A stretch of 64,000 bases of DNA. It comes from Solibacillus sp. FSL R5-0449. Its GTDB lineage: Bacteria > Bacillota > Bacilli > Bacillales_A > Planococcaceae. The translations under genes and the position numbers were made by a program. Below, in pieces: positions 52,052 through 62,587 of this stretch (the stretch's first letter is position 1; each line of letters opens with the position of its first letter). The stretch lies in contig NZ_CP150239.1 in NCBI RefSeq assembly GCF_037975215.1, positions 1,774,001 through 1,838,000 of the forward strand. The letters are read 5' to 3'. Below the pieces are notes generated by a model. It ran no database searches, was not told the origin of the DNA, and worked only from the letters and a program-made list of their open reading frames with translations.

Positions 52052-52224
52052 TTATTAGAAGTTTTTTCGTTTTATTAGAAAACTTCTATGGTTTATTAGC
52101 GTATTTCAACTATTTATTTGAACATCTGAGAGACTTATTAGAACAATTGCCTTATATATTAGAAAATCGGCAACTTATTAGAAGATTTCTACCCGATATT
52201 AGATGATTTACGATTATATTAGAA
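52052..52224. repeat. phased array of nine TTATTAGAA-like units (array 1)
   Basis: The core TTATTAGAA or a close variant starts at 52052, 52072, 52093, 52114, 52135, 52156, 52175, 52196 and 52216, so the steps are 20, 21, 21, 21, 21, 19, 21 and 20 bp. Spacers of 10-12 bases differ in sequence. The array lies between the lysE-type gene (starts 51910) and the end of a DUF2812 gene (52240), directly after that gene's stop on the minus strand. It is not coding in any frame, as TAG and TAA stops recur. A matching array is at 61729-61900. Confidence 0.8.
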
Positions 52225-57023: not shown

Positions 57024-57095
57024 GATGAGAGCAAAATTGAGCATCATCAAATAAGCTTTTTGAAGTTAATTTTCAAAAAACTGCTGACATTGCTT

Positions 57096-57225
57096 CCTTC
57101 TCCCATCCAGACTATAACTGTCGGCTTTGGACTTGCACCAAATCCTGCACACAAAAGTGGCTCACGGGCTTAGAGGTAAACTCATCACCGTCGATTGGGA
57201 ATTTCACCCGACCCCGAAGGAAATT
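57096..57225 (-). promoter_or_regulatory. FMN riboswitch (proximal copy)
   Basis: On the minus strand the RFN element is clear: CTTCGGGGTCGGGTGAAATT at the 5' side, then ACGGTGATGAGTT-like and GTGAGCC segments, and CAGTTATAGTCTGGATGGGA near the 3' end. It lies about 130 bases before ribE and is followed by its own terminator. It should turn off ribEBH when FMN is abundant. Confidence 0.93.
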
Positions 57226-57322: not shown

Positions 57323-57330
57323 TTGCCATT

Positions 57331-57462
57331 CCTTCTCCCATCCAGACTATAACTGTCGGCTTTGGATTTGCACCAAAATCCTGCACACATAAAGTGGCTC
57401 ACGGGCTTAGAGTTCAACTCATCACCGTCGATTGGGAATTTCACCCGACCCCGAAGGAAATT
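57331..57462 (-). promoter_or_regulatory. FMN riboswitch (distal copy)
   Basis: A second complete RFN element, almost identical to the proximal copy; I count only a handful of substitutions and small insertions over 130 bases. It lies 105 bases upstream of the proximal copy on the same strand, with two hairpin terminators in between and no gene. Confidence 0.93.
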
Positions 57463-59011: not shown

Positions 59012-61282
59012 CTAATTCAACTGTTTAAGTCGCTCTTTTGCGGCCACCATATTTTTCAATGATGCAATGGTCTCTTGTTCCGTACGAGTTTTCAGGCCAC
59101 AATCGGGATTGATCCAAAATTGTTCTTTTGCGATTACTTTTTTACTATTTTCTATAATGGTTGCCATTTCTTCCACAGTTGGAATACGCGGGCTATGAAT
59201 ATCATATACACCTAAGCCAATTCCAAGTCCATATGGTGTTTCTTTTAATACTTTTATCAGCTCACCGTGACTTCGTGACGTTTCAATTGAAATCACATCC
59301 GCATCCAATGATTCTATTACATCAATAAAATCGTTAAATTCACAATAACACATATGTGTATGAATCTGGGTCGTTTCACGCACACCGCTTGTCGCTAATT
59401 TAAATGCAGCTACACTCGCATCGATATAAGACTTATGCAGACTTTTACGTATTGGCATACCTTCTTTCAAGGCAGGTTCGTCTACTTGAATTATATTGAT
59501 TCCCGCATTTTCAAGTGCCCTTACTTCTTCTCTCAGTGCCAAACCGATTTGATAAGCTACTTCTGAGCGTGCTAAATCATCTCTTACAAATGACCAGTTC
59601 AATATGGTAACGGGTCCCGTCAACATCCCTTTGACCGGCTTTTCCGTAAGTGATTGTGCTGCACTTACTTCCTTTACTGTCATCGGTTCTTTCCATTCAA
59701 CATCTCCGTAAATAAGTGGCGGTTTTACACAGCGCGATCCGTACGAAACTACCCATCCGTTTTTCGTAAACGCAAAGCCATTTAATTTTTCACCAAAAAA
59801 TTCGACCATGTCTGTTCGCTCAAATTCCCCATGGACGAGAACATCTAGACCAAGTTCCTCCTGAATCGAAATCCAACGTGCGGTTTCGTTCGCGTTGAAT
59901 GCTTCATACTCTATTGTTGTAATTTCTCCTTTACGCCATAAACTACGGTTTTTCTTAACTTCTGCGGATTGCGGGAAACTCCCGATTGTTGTTGTAGGAT
60001 AGTCAGGTAACTGTAAAAAGGCACGTTGTAGCTTACTACGCTTGTTATAGTTCTCTGCTCGTTTAAATGCTTCCGGTGTTAATGCGTTTACTTGTGCATG
60101 TATAGCTTCCTTTTGTCTTGATTCATGCAGCGCCAAAGTGCGAATTGCTTTTTCGCTTTCTAAAAAAGCCTTATTATGAGGAAATTCCAGGTGAAGTATC
60201 TTCCCTTTAATCATTTGCAGTTCCGTTATTTTTTCATTTGCGAATGCTAAAGCATTTAGCAGCTCTGGCACAATGCCATCCTCTCCCGCTGTTGTAACTG
60301 GCACATGCTGAAGGCTACACGAGGTTTGTAGATGTATTGGTGAAAATGGTACATAGGATCGTATTTCCGCGACTAGCGCCAACTGCTTCTGCAACTCGGC
60401 TCTCCATATATCCCGACCATTAATAATTCCGGCATATAAAACTTTATCTTTTGGGAAAGCAAATTTTTTTAACGATGCTATATTTTCAATTTTTCCATGA
60501 ACAAAGTCCAGTCCAAAGCCATCAACAGGCAATTTAATAATTGTTTCATAGTCGGATAACGCTTCAAAATATGTTGTGCAGATCATTTCAACAGTCAGTC
60601 CTTTTAATACTTGATGATAGAAATGCTGAACTAATGCAATATCTTCGGAAGTAAGGTCTTTTGTAAGGCTTGGTTCTTCAAGCTGGATCGAAGTTGCACC
60701 GCTTGCTTCCAACGACTGAAGCAACTCTTTATACACATTTACCAGCTGCTGAATATAGTGTTGTTTTTGTGCGTCACCTACACCTTTTGTAAGTTTATAA
60801 AAGGTAAAAGGACCGATAATAGTCACACGAGGGATTGTGCCGAATGCTTCGATTGCCTCCTGAATATATTGCGCGTAAACATTGTGTTGCAATGCCAGTT
60901 GCTGTCCCTCGTATTCCGGTACAATATAGTGATAATTCGTATTGAACCATTTCGTCATTTCACATGCCACCACATTTTCAGCACCGCGCGCCATTGCAAA
61001 ATACGCTGTTAAATGATGCTGCAGGGAAAGGTGGTCGTATCTAGATGGAATCATATTAAACATAACGGCTAAGTCAAGCATGCGGTCATAATATGTAAAA
61101 TCTCCTACTGTTAAAATATCCAGCCCCAAATCCTGTTGCTGCTGAAGTTGAGCGATACGTAAGTTTTTCATTTCCTGTTCATAACTTTCCAAAGATAATT
61201 GTTCTTTCCAAAATGCCTCTGTTATACGCTTCCATTCACGATTCTGTCCAATATAAGGGTAGCCAATTACTGCTGTTTTCAT
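59012..61282 (-). CDS. metE: cobalamin-independent methionine synthase
   Basis: A 756-residue enzyme that methylates homocysteine with methyltetrahydrofolate-triglutamate. It has the two TIM-barrel halves; the catalytic half (from about residue 430) has TTIGSFPQSAEVKKNR, VHGEFERTDMVEFFGE and zinc ligands in HTHMCYCEF and NPDCGLKTR. ATG 61282 is preceded by AAGGAGG at eight bases. A cobalamin riboswitch lies upstream, which fits repression when the B12-dependent enzyme can work. Confidence 0.97.
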   Translation of the reverse strand: MKTAVIGYPYIGQNREWKRITEAFWKEQLSLESYEQEMKNLRIAQLQQQQDLGLDILTVGDFTYYDRMLDLAVMFNMIPSRYDHLSLQHHLTAYFAMARGAENVVACEMTKWFNTNYHYIVPEYEGQQLALQHNVYAQYIQEAIEAFGTIPRVTIIGPFTFYKLTKGVGDAQKQHYIQQLVNVYKELLQSLEASGATSIQLEEPSLTKDLTSEDIALVQHFYHQVLKGLTVEMICTTYFEALSDYETIIKLPVDGFGLDFVHGKIENIASLKKFAFPKDKVLYAGIINGRDIWRAELQKQLALVAEIRSYVPFSPIHLQTSCSLQHVPVTTAGEDGIVPELLNALAFANEKITELQMIKGKILHLEFPHNKAFLESEKAIRTLALHESRQKEAIHAQVNALTPEAFKRAENYNKRSKLQRAFLQLPDYPTTTIGSFPQSAEVKKNRSLWRKGEITTIEYEAFNANETARWISIQEELGLDVLVHGEFERTDMVEFFGEKLNGFAFTKNGWVVSYGSRCVKPPLIYGDVEWKEPMTVKEVSAAQSLTEKPVKGMLTGPVTILNWSFVRDDLARSEVAYQIGLALREEVRALENAGINIIQVDEPALKEGMPIRKSLHKSYIDASVAAFKLATSGVRETTQIHTHMCYCEFNDFIDVIESLDADVISIETSRSHGELIKVLKETPYGLGIGLGVYDIHSPRIPTVEEMATIIENSKKVIAKEQFWINPDCGLKTRTEQETIASLKNMVAAKERLKQLN

Positions 61283-61310
61283 AAACAATTCCTCCTTAAA
61301 TTTGTTACAT

Positions 61311-61444: not shown

Positions 61445-61622
61445 GGCGTGTACTAGTTTCCGGCAGGTCTCCTGGCTCATCATCAACGTTCTTGTGATCC
61501 TTCCCATCAATAGACAGTGGTTGAATATCACGAACTCCGATTTACAGTTGCGGGACAGCACCAGACTTTCACTGGTTTCCCTTTTCAGCTTGTTCTCACA
61601 AGCACCGTAACTTACACAGTAT
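61445..61622 (-). promoter_or_regulatory. cobalamin riboswitch controlling metE
   Basis: On the minus strand the B12-box hallmark GAGCCAGGAGACCTGCC is present near the 3' end, together with CGGTGCTTGTGAGAACAAG, AAAGGGAAACCAGTGAAA and GCTGTCCCGCAACTGTAA typical of the conserved core. It lies upstream of metE and its terminator. Binding of adenosylcobalamin should end transcription. Confidence 0.93.
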
Positions 61623-61728
61623 GTAATTTCGTATACTATATCATAGAATTTGAGTTTTGAAAATTCTTTTTATTTATTGCTTTCTCAATTTCTGGTTTGA
61701 ACAATTTCGGTTGATGCCATTGTGCTTT

Positions 61729-61900
61729 TTTTTAGAAGAAATTGATTTATATTAGCACTTCTGCAGGTGATTTTAGAAGAGTTGGCGTACTTTTTAGCTG
61801 AACAGGAACTGATTTTGGCGTATCCCGCAACTATATTAGACATTCCGTAACTTATTAGAAAATCAGCGGGTTTATTAGCACATTTAATATTTTATTAGAC
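61729..61900. repeat. phased array of nine TTATTAGAA-like units (array 2)
   Basis: The G of each core TTAG-like motif falls at 61735, 61755, 61776, 61797, 61818, 61839, 61858, 61878 and 61898, giving steps of 20, 21, 21, 21, 21, 19, 20 and 20 bp. One unit (TTTTGG) is degenerate. Number of units and spacing nearly equal those of array 1 at 52052-52224, while spacers differ except for short pieces such as ACTTCT in unit 2. It lies between metE (upstream of its riboswitch) and the terminator of the SCO1-type gene. Confidence 0.78.
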
Positions 61901-61913
61901 CAACACCCACTCC

Positions 61914-61958
61914 ACAAAAAAACTTGCGTTAAAAGTTACAGCACTTTTTCCGCAAGTT
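61914..61958 (-). terminator. intrinsic terminator of the SCO1-type gene
   Basis: On the minus strand AACTTGCG pairs with CGCAAGTT across a 22-base loop, followed by T7. Confidence 0.72.
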
Positions 61959-61975
61959 AATCTATCATTCCACTA

Positions 61976-62587
61976 TTAATTTAAACGTTCATCAATGAGT
62001 GCTTCCATATCACTCGCAATCGTTTCATATGGAACACCATCTTCTCCAGTACCATAACCTGAATAGTTTTTTACGGCAATTCCTTTTTCATCCACGAGGA
62101 AAAATGTATCGGCGTGGATAACTTGTGAATTCCCTTCAATTGCCTGGACAGGAGTTTTAAATGAGTTTCTGCCAAACTGCTCGATAAATTTTTGATCATA
62201 TCCTGTCAGCATATGCCATTTTGATTCGTCTACCGGTTTATGACGCGATAAATATTCTGTCAGACGCTCCGGTGTATCATAGTCAGGATCAACTGAAAAC
62301 GCGACAATTTTATAATCTTCCAGACCTTTTTTTTCAAGGTGGTCCTGCACCCGGGTCATATTCATCGTCATAGGCGAGCAAATCGTTGTACAGCTTGTAA
62401 AGATGAACATCGCCAGCCATGGTTCCCCTTTTAGACTTTCCAGTGTCACCTCATCATTCCGGTGATCGGTCATCGTAAACCCGCTAATTTCAAAGTTTGT
62501 CGTCGGTTTAAACTGATAATTACTGCAAGCTGTGAGAACGGTTGCTGCCAAGAGCATAAGTGCGAATACTATTTTTTTCGTTTTCAT
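61976..62587 (-). CDS. SCO1/SenC-family copper chaperone lipoprotein
   Basis: A 203-residue lipoprotein (lipobox LTAC, Cys21) with a thioredoxin-like fold. The copper site is visible as CTTIC in FIFTSCTTICSPM and the later His in IHADTFFLVDEKG. SCO1 proteins deliver copper to cytochrome c oxidase CuA. It is monocistronic. Confidence 0.9.
   Translation of the reverse strand: MKTKKIVFALMLLAATVLTACSNYQFKPTTNFEISGFTMTDHRNDEVTLESLKGEPWLAMFIFTSCTTICSPMTMNMTRVQDHLEKKGLEDYKIVAFSVDPDYDTPERLTEYLSRHKPVDESKWHMLTGYDQKFIEQFGRNSFKTPVQAIEGNSQVIHADTFFLVDEKGIAVKNYSGYGTGEDGVPYETIASDMEALIDERLN

Follow-up and report, generated by a model that had tools for sequence, protein, structure and literature searches.

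BIMEs are present in dozens of intergenic copies, at the 3′ ends of genes and between convergent genes. Iterons and the ParR/parC-type centromeres are built of direct repeats spaced about 20 to 22 bp apart, which place protein copies on one face of the helix, and both iterons and partition centromeres are single loci beside rep or par genes. The STAR-like and bcr repeats of Firmicutes are intergenic, multicopy, and lineage specific; we know of no helical-phase rule for them. Here we describe an array of short direct repeats (array 2) in a 64,000-nucleotide stretch of the chromosome of Solibacillus sp. FSL R5-0449 (positions 1,774,001 to 1,838,000 of contig NZ_CP150239.1; the window). We are confident that the array family is a phase-locked duplex-DNA element, and on balance we favor the reading that this element is dispersed and cis acting, serves as a platform for an unidentified protein, and is represented in array 2 by a decaying copy. 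Support for phase-locking of the DNA is good; both the protein and its function are inferred.

The nine cores of array 2, their coordinates, and the surrounding features are listed in Table 1. The original prediction had described nine cores with exactly this series of steps and a second array (array 1) with nearly the same spacing, including a 19-bp step between units 6 and 7 in both arrays; we recovered all of these features, and a single step differs between the two arrays (step 7, 21 bp versus 20 bp). On inspection, the spacer pieces said to be common to both arrays in units 2 and 6 are visible by eye, and no significance figure is attached to them. Both arrays do sit between two minus-strand genes, and the gene whose 3′ end the last unit of array 2 points at proved to be SCO1/SenC. 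When scored against nine ideal TATTAGAA cores, array 1 agreed at 68 of 72 positions and array 2 at 59 of 72. Scores from 3,000 first-order Markov resamples of the 400 bp surrounding array 2 averaged 39.3 and never exceeded 47. Chains elsewhere in the window reached at best 45 on the plus strand and 44 on the minus strand; array 2 lies above all of these values and is therefore real. It nevertheless has the bottom score among the 56 best copies in the genome.

Table 1. Features of array 2, of the second copy in the window, and of their surroundings (positions count from the first nucleotide of the window)
Feature	Position	Strand	Remarks
Array 2, nine TATTAGAA-like cores	61730..61900	+	Steps 20, 21, 21, 21, 21, 19, 20, 20
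Core 1 of array 2	61730..61737	+	TTTTAGAA
Core 2 of array 2	61750..61757	+	TATTAGCA
Core 3 of array 2	61771..61778	+	TTTTAGAA
Core 4 of array 2	61792..61799	+	TTTTAGCT
Core 5 of array 2	61813..61820	+	TTTTGGCG, decayed; TATTAGCA in the G007, G008, and G003 orthologs
Core 6 of array 2	61834..61841	+	TATTAGAC
Core 7 of array 2	61853..61860	+	TATTAGAA, after the 19-bp step; sole perfect core
Core 8 of array 2	61873..61880	+	TATTAGCA
Core 9 of array 2	61893..61900	+	TATTAGAC
Array 1, second copy in the window	52053..52224	+	Nine cores, steps 20, 21, 21, 21, 21, 19, 21, 20; core starts 52053, 52073, 52094, 52115, 52136, 52157, 52176, 52197, 52217; unit 4 is TATTTGAA
Inverted repeat, then T run on the minus strand	61921..61958	-	16-nt arms, 88% complementary; terminator-like SCO1/SenC end, 20 bp from array 2
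SCO1/SenC gene, 3′ end facing array 2	61976..62587	-	PF02630, E 8.5e-27
Cobalamin riboswitch upstream of metE, neighbor of array 2 on the other side	61445..61624	-	Not beside array 2 in G003 and G005
metE, cobalamin-independent methionine synthase	59012..61288	-	PF01717, PF08267
FMN riboswitch, first of two	57091..57225	-	Same strand as the second, about 100 bp apart
FMN riboswitch, second of two	57326..57462	-

Array 2 belongs to a repeat family that is dispersed over the FSL R5-0449 chromosome. A three-unit TATTAG pattern had 127 matches on one strand and 77 on the other, compared to 0 and 2 for the reversed control. A sequence-only model of the nine-core block, built from ten copies that included arrays 1 and 2, gave at least 97 matches at an E value of ≤0.01 on the 3.58-Mb contig, with 150 of 3,820 initial candidates having been scored; the match to array 2 (genome positions 1835728 to 1835904) scored 100 bits with an E value of 2.1e-28, array 2 being one of the ten model-building sequences. 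Steps were counted in the best 56 of the at least 97 matches (62.9 bits or more), and the 41 other matches (E values up to 0.01), which are partial or weak, were left outside these counts. Since spacing is built into the model, copies with other spacings score lower and are underreported. In 55 of these 56 copies, step 6 was 19 bp; steps 2, 3, 4, and 5 were 21 bp in 55, 56, 55, and 56 copies, respectively (222 of 224 steps); and step 7 was 20 bp in 52. Step 1 was 21 bp in 35 copies and 20 bp in 19, and step 8 was 20 bp in 29 and 21 bp in 27. The nine-core span was 164 bp in 34 copies, 165 bp in 14, 163 bp in 7, and 161 bp in 1, with a variance (0.53) below the summed variances of the steps (0.87), indicating that deviations in the steps compensate for one another (permutation P = 0.005; the copies are not independent). 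Core positions carried up to 2 bits of information, and most spacer positions in units 1 to 5 carried less than 0.7; across the 56 copies, certain spacer bases were conserved in units 6 to 8, and TATTTGAA was the commonest form of unit 4. Over the same copies, spacers and flanks are G rich to the left of the element and C rich to the right (the composition table omits two copies, and the covariation test omits these two and five near-duplicates). A large inverted symmetry along these lines was considered and rejected, because complementarity within the same copy was not above that between copies.

Upstream sequence sufficed for a survey in all but two of the 56 copies, and in 27 of these 54, four extra cores at 21-bp steps (fit of at least 27/32) precede the nine. 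Neither array 1 nor array 2 has this upstream block. In the 24 better-fitting copies, the linker from the last upstream core to the first of the nine was 81 to 82 bp in 20 and 71 to 72 bp in 4. In BLAST comparisons with flanks, distant copies share a unit of about 323 bp that extends approximately from the first upstream core to slightly beyond the last core and that starts and finishes with cores in the same orientation. Whole elements also occur in tandem (genome positions 313676 to 314325, 1078331 to 1078852, and 1155175 to 1155689), either as three copies 235 to 236 bp apart or as pairs about 340 bp apart.

The original prediction held that the arrays are homologous elements in which core and phase are under selection and spacers are free, a claim that equal divergence of cores and spacers, or unrelated spacing in other copies, would have refuted. 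We therefore compared the copies in FSL R5-0449 with their orthologs in five other Solibacillus genomes (G003, G005, G007, G008, and G012), accepting only pairs whose flanks matched over at least 200 bp on either side. Tandem loci (313, 1078, 1155, 2878, and 2880 kb) and genomes G004 and G006 were excluded, and 2 of the 45 resulting pairs, both at locus 2660771, were dropped because their spacers were more than 45% diverged. In the remaining 43 pairs (21 loci), core positions 1 to 6 differed at 70 of 2,322 sites (3.0%) and spacers at 856 of 4,196 (20.4%), a 6.8-fold difference in rate; restoring the two dropped pairs gave 82 of 2,430 (3.4%) and 953 of 4,373 (21.8%). Only 9 of 344 steps had changed, six of the nine being step 1. 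The claim is thus supported on both counts: divergence is not equal, and no unrelated spacing was found across these genomes. At array 2 itself, G008 and G003 differed at 0 of 54 core sites and 27 of 99 spacer sites, and G007 and G008 differed at 2 of 54 and 23 of 99, respectively (counts for G012, which is out of register owing to an insertion, were left out). The FSL R5-0449 copy differed from each of G007, G008, and G003 at 5 of 54 core sites and has thus decayed. At locus 2660771, upstream core 4 of G005 is fused in phase to core 3 of the nine-core block compared to G003; judged from the alignment, this fusion looks like a deletion between repeats.

The linker between the two blocks follows a similar rule. 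Of the 30 ortholog pairs that have both blocks (14 loci), 28 have linkers equal in length to within 1 bp; for flanks of similar size, this was so in 11 of 38 cases downstream and 5 of 18 upstream. The linker sequence itself diverges, with 25% mismatches and many small gaps, some of which may be compensating gaps invented by the aligner. The two exceptional pairs are one locus, 128187, at which the linker is 71 bp in FSL R5-0449, 81 bp in G005, and 82 bp in G003; no decayed core was evident in it. Most apparent 92-bp linkers conceal a decayed core one unit in, and apparent 118- and 121-bp linkers contain intact cores, so these are not independent classes. With gaps that might hide a core (at least 5 of 8 matches) removed, 51 linker clusters remained, of 50 bp (1 cluster), 59 bp (1), 61 bp (1), 69 to 72 bp (9), 80 to 83 bp (37), and 91 to 93 bp (2). 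The best period outside the 80- to 83-bp class (14 clusters) was 10.5 bp, and none of 20,000 uniform draws was equally regular. Ortholog pairs share loci and linker clusters are possibly related by descent, so that these P values are too small. Other genera show recurrent gaps of 40 to 42, 61, 82, and 103 bp. Linkers that keep their length and fall into classes 10.5 bp apart indicate duplex DNA that is read from one side, whereas an RNA or a coding sequence predicts no such thing. The steps of 19 to 20 bp after unit 6 depart from a strict 21-bp phase and count against our explanation.

Formally, the family could be a dispersed, selfish repeat that is mobile in the manner of a MITE or otherwise, with cores that bind a transposase or recombinase supplied in trans, and that gene 3′ ends merely tolerate. 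Its dispersal is real (distant copies are 86.6% identical between 1529148 and 2660771 and 80.7% identical between 281665 and 500551), its distribution in the genus is patchy, whole elements are found in tandem, and G004 and G006 have an array of opposite orientation at the SCO site. However, every core in an element has the same orientation, and array 2 (the only copy to which this observation applies) has no convincing terminal inverted repeat, its ends offering only an 11-nt pair that is 82% A/T rich (61726 to 61736 and 61911 to 61921). Moreover, orthologous copies stay in place and keep their cores relative to their spacers, whereas a dead insertion should decay evenly. An empty-site comparison was attempted at locus 1529148, where the array is missing from G008; the terminator of G008 differs as well, so that no clean empty site was obtained. 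We regard a purely selfish origin as unlikely, although it cannot be set aside.

We next consider where the copies of this phase-locked element lie. By simple open reading frame (ORF) calling, which locates the genes beside the copies other than array 2 without naming them, 22 of the 56 copies lie between genes running in the direction of the array, 10 lie between genes running against it, 20 are in convergent gaps, 1 is in a divergent gap, and 3 are undetermined; the sole divergent-gap copy adjoins a 98-amino-acid ORF that is possibly spurious. As a background we took gaps of at least 100 bp in the window and in 400 kb from two array-free relatives (n = 205; 122 codirectional, 53 divergent, and 30 convergent). 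Convergent gaps were enriched among the arrays (20 of 53 versus 30 of 205; Fisher P = 3.6e-4) and divergent gaps were depleted (1 of 53 versus 53 of 205; Fisher P = 1.9e-5), while the preference for the strand of the flanking genes (22 with versus 10 against) was weak (P = 0.05). A terminator-like hairpin with a T run lay within 110 bp on the left of 23 of the 56 copies and on the right of 17, compared to 58 of 1,500 random windows, which were not matched for gene ends. At array 2, the neighbor on the metE side is different in G003 and G005, but the ortholog, which is truncated in G005, stays beside the end of the SCO gene; the site after that gene is occupied by the oppositely oriented array in G004 and G006.

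Convergent and 3′-end gaps are the neighborhood expected for topological relief, and the arrays could accordingly be strong sites for gyrase or another topoisomerase, like BIME-2, in which case the DNA at gene 3′ ends would be wrapped and periodically bendable. BIME-2 elements are bound by gyrase, which prefers some of them, and the Escherichia coli gyrase motif is about 130 bp long with GC content changing at a period of 10.75 bp (PMC6379681). The motif, as presented there, is degenerate, whereas the 8-bp core here is nearly fixed; the array period is two turns; and gyrase is a conserved enzyme, whereas the cores differ between genomes. This explanation is improbable in our view.

Model matches were found in 11 of 16 Solibacillus genomes, with 1 to 72 per genome, and the absence of a match from the other 5 (G002, G009, G010, G011, and G014) indicates that the element is dispensable. 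Eight genomes, G000, G003 to G008, and G012, are rich in arrays. Arrays of any core were sought in 200 kb each of two array-free genomes, G010 and G014, and none were found. A looser pattern (three TATTMGMMM units at 20 to 21 bp) was present in 21 of the 261 genomes from the order; these represent 5 of the 19 genera and include 12 of the 16 Solibacillus genomes. Of 299 genomes drawn from the class, 3 matched, namely, FSL R5-0449 and 2 of 271 outside the family, one of the latter with an ordinary near-perfect repeat. In a separate scan of named genomes, the matches listed included arrays in Ureibacillus, Lysinibacillus antri, Psychrobacillus, several Bacillus species, Cytobacillus, and Lederbergia; many of those listed from other phyla are unexamined or resemble ordinary tandem repeats. 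The search pattern favors TATT-like cores.

Where several arrays of one genome were observed, they mostly have a common core, which is TATTAGAA in Solibacillus, TATTAGACA in G097, TATTCGCCA in Ureibacillus and others, TATTCGACC in Bacillus sp. BA3 and Psychrobacillus G162 and OK028, TATTAGCC in L. antri and Lederbergia, and AATCGGTCGGT in G169 and G170. FSL R5-0449 and the S. merdavium pair have two families each, the second having AAGTAGAA cores in FSL R5-0449 and GTGNCGAATA cores at 21 bp in S. merdavium and S. faecavium. Arrays of Ureibacillus contain both TATTCG and TATTAG. The AAGTAGAA arrays of FSL R5-0449, at about 654494 and 697185, have exact 21-bp steps and free spacers. In G006 and G004, a GTGNCGAATA array with a 21-bp period follows the gene end orthologous to locus 1529148, replacing the TATTAG element found there in FSL R5-0449. 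G001 has CGCACG repeats with 20- and 21-bp steps alternating and only two TATTAG model matches. G169, G170, G124, and G200 have phased arrays of AATCGGTCGGT (20 to 21 bp), CGCCCGATTAT (20 bp), and TATCACCG (21 bp), which surfaced because the reversed control pattern matched in these genomes. G250 and G260, which belong to the genus with Ureibacillus, have 103-bp higher-order repeats composed of three 21-bp units and one of 40 bp, with two cores.

Some of these cores raised the possibility that the arrays bind a known global regulator, above all Spo0A, and act as a sink or loading platform for this regulator of sporulation. The 0A box is TGTCGAA, of which Spo0A contacts G2, C4, and G5 (PMC3485338). 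The GTGNCGAATA cores of the second S. merdavium and S. faecavium family contain TGNCGAA, as do the TATTCGACA arrays of Bacillus sp. SJS and B. fonticola, which read TGTCGAATA in reverse. The main Solibacillus core, in contrast, reads TTCTAATA in reverse, lacks G5, and failed the 0A-box test, and the AAGTAGAA, CGCACG, and AATCGGTCGGT cores do not fit. The likeness to the 0A box was also partly selected, since the TATTMGMMM pattern favors CGAATA-like cores. A Spo0A platform is thus very unlikely. A restriction- or BREX-like reading of TATTAG was dropped because it leaves the phasing unexplained, and possible plasmid relatives were rejected because the matches were weak and chance-like.

A functional RNA or a small protein is more remote still, and we consider it highly improbable. 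The arrays come after transcribed genes and might be transcribed, and 21 bp is seven codons, so that an array could encode a heptad-repeat peptide (TTA GAA, or Leu-Glu, once per seven codons); the 19- and 20-bp steps together restore the frame at unit 8 in most copies. However, stops in the TTA-GAA frame were not depleted (23, versus 21.1 [standard deviation, 4.0] in column-shuffled copies), and 20 of 54 copies have at least one stop over units 2 to 6. RNAalifold returned no consensus structure on either strand of 55 aligned copies (0.0; gaps were placed arbitrarily). Complementarity between spacers was not in excess within copies relative to that between copies (45 spacer pairs in 49 copies; mean z, -0.09; highest, 1.8), and Rfam had no match over the arrays in the window or at four other loci, while it does find riboswitches. 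A common RNA fold was also rejected after single-sequence folding of seven copies, which had no shared shape. Scarcely credible is the notion of neutral, decaying tandem repeats, in which a 21-bp unit was amplified by slippage and its core retained by chance: unit loss and whole-element tandem copies do exist, and some other genomes carry ordinary near-perfect 21-bp repeats, but this notion is contradicted by the rate difference between spacers and cores in orthologs, by the step at place 6 common to nearly all copies, and by linker lengths that are kept in phase.

Returning to the protein platform that we favor, the full element comprises 13 TATTAGAA cores in the same orientation (4 + 9), which lie two helical turns apart on a single face of a duplex of about 323 bp, and a linker of free sequence that changes length mostly by whole turns. 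A sequence-specific protein would dock on each core, and the bound copies may touch or polymerize along the one face, bending or wrapping the DNA; both steps are inferred. We think it probable that a dedicated protein reads the core, and the dialect of each genome would then follow the specificity of its own protein. The dialects point to a recognition surface that varies along with the core, and core differences between genomes count against one conserved protein, which would not predict them. No such protein was found, and no binding has been demonstrated. The complex, positioned at the ends of transcription units, might act as a topological or nucleoid-organizing node that fixes supercoils and insulates neighbors, which is the least certain step. 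Lying at gene ends and avoiding divergent promoters, the arrays look more like structural or topological elements than like promoter elements, yet we hold a role in topology or the nucleoid to be somewhat doubtful. Tentatively, and without expecting every part of it to hold, we propose an undescribed nucleoprotein scaffold of the Bacillales in which phase-locked arrays of about 320 bp and a fast-evolving, dialect-matched protein organize local topology.

If this is true, one group of spore-formers has, at tens of sites per genome, a nucleoprotein structure that is missing from annotation. The element is a natural experiment on helical phasing: its linkers vary freely in sequence yet keep to whole turns, so that the geometry of an unknown complex can be read from genomes alone. 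The dialects offer a direct route to the protein, whose recognition surface should vary in step with the core. We recognized no earlier description of such arrays in the open-access literature (titles, abstracts, and counts; subscription journals are mostly uncovered), and priority is unproven.

Compared to known systems, the arrays combine features that are otherwise found apart. They share with the Spo0A box only the TGNCGAA inside the cores of some relatives, which is absent from the main Solibacillus core. Like the STAR-like and bcr repeats, they are intergenic, multicopy, and lineage specific, a likeness that does not rest on sequence comparison. Like REPs and BIMEs, they are extragenic and lie at gene 3′ ends, with 20 of 53 copies in convergent gaps and 1 of 53 in a divergent gap; REPs, however, are palindromes in alternating orientation, whereas the arrays are one-way direct repeats in helical phase, and they failed the palindrome test, having no conserved hairpin by complementarity (49 copies) or by alignment folding (55 copies). 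With iterons and partition centromeres they share direct repeats about 20 to 22 bp apart in helical phase. They differ from these in lying at no fewer than 56 places on one 3.58-Mb contig, beside unrelated genes (metE and SCO1/SenC in the case of array 2, which thus failed the test of adjacency to rep or par genes), and in having spacers that are free in sequence.
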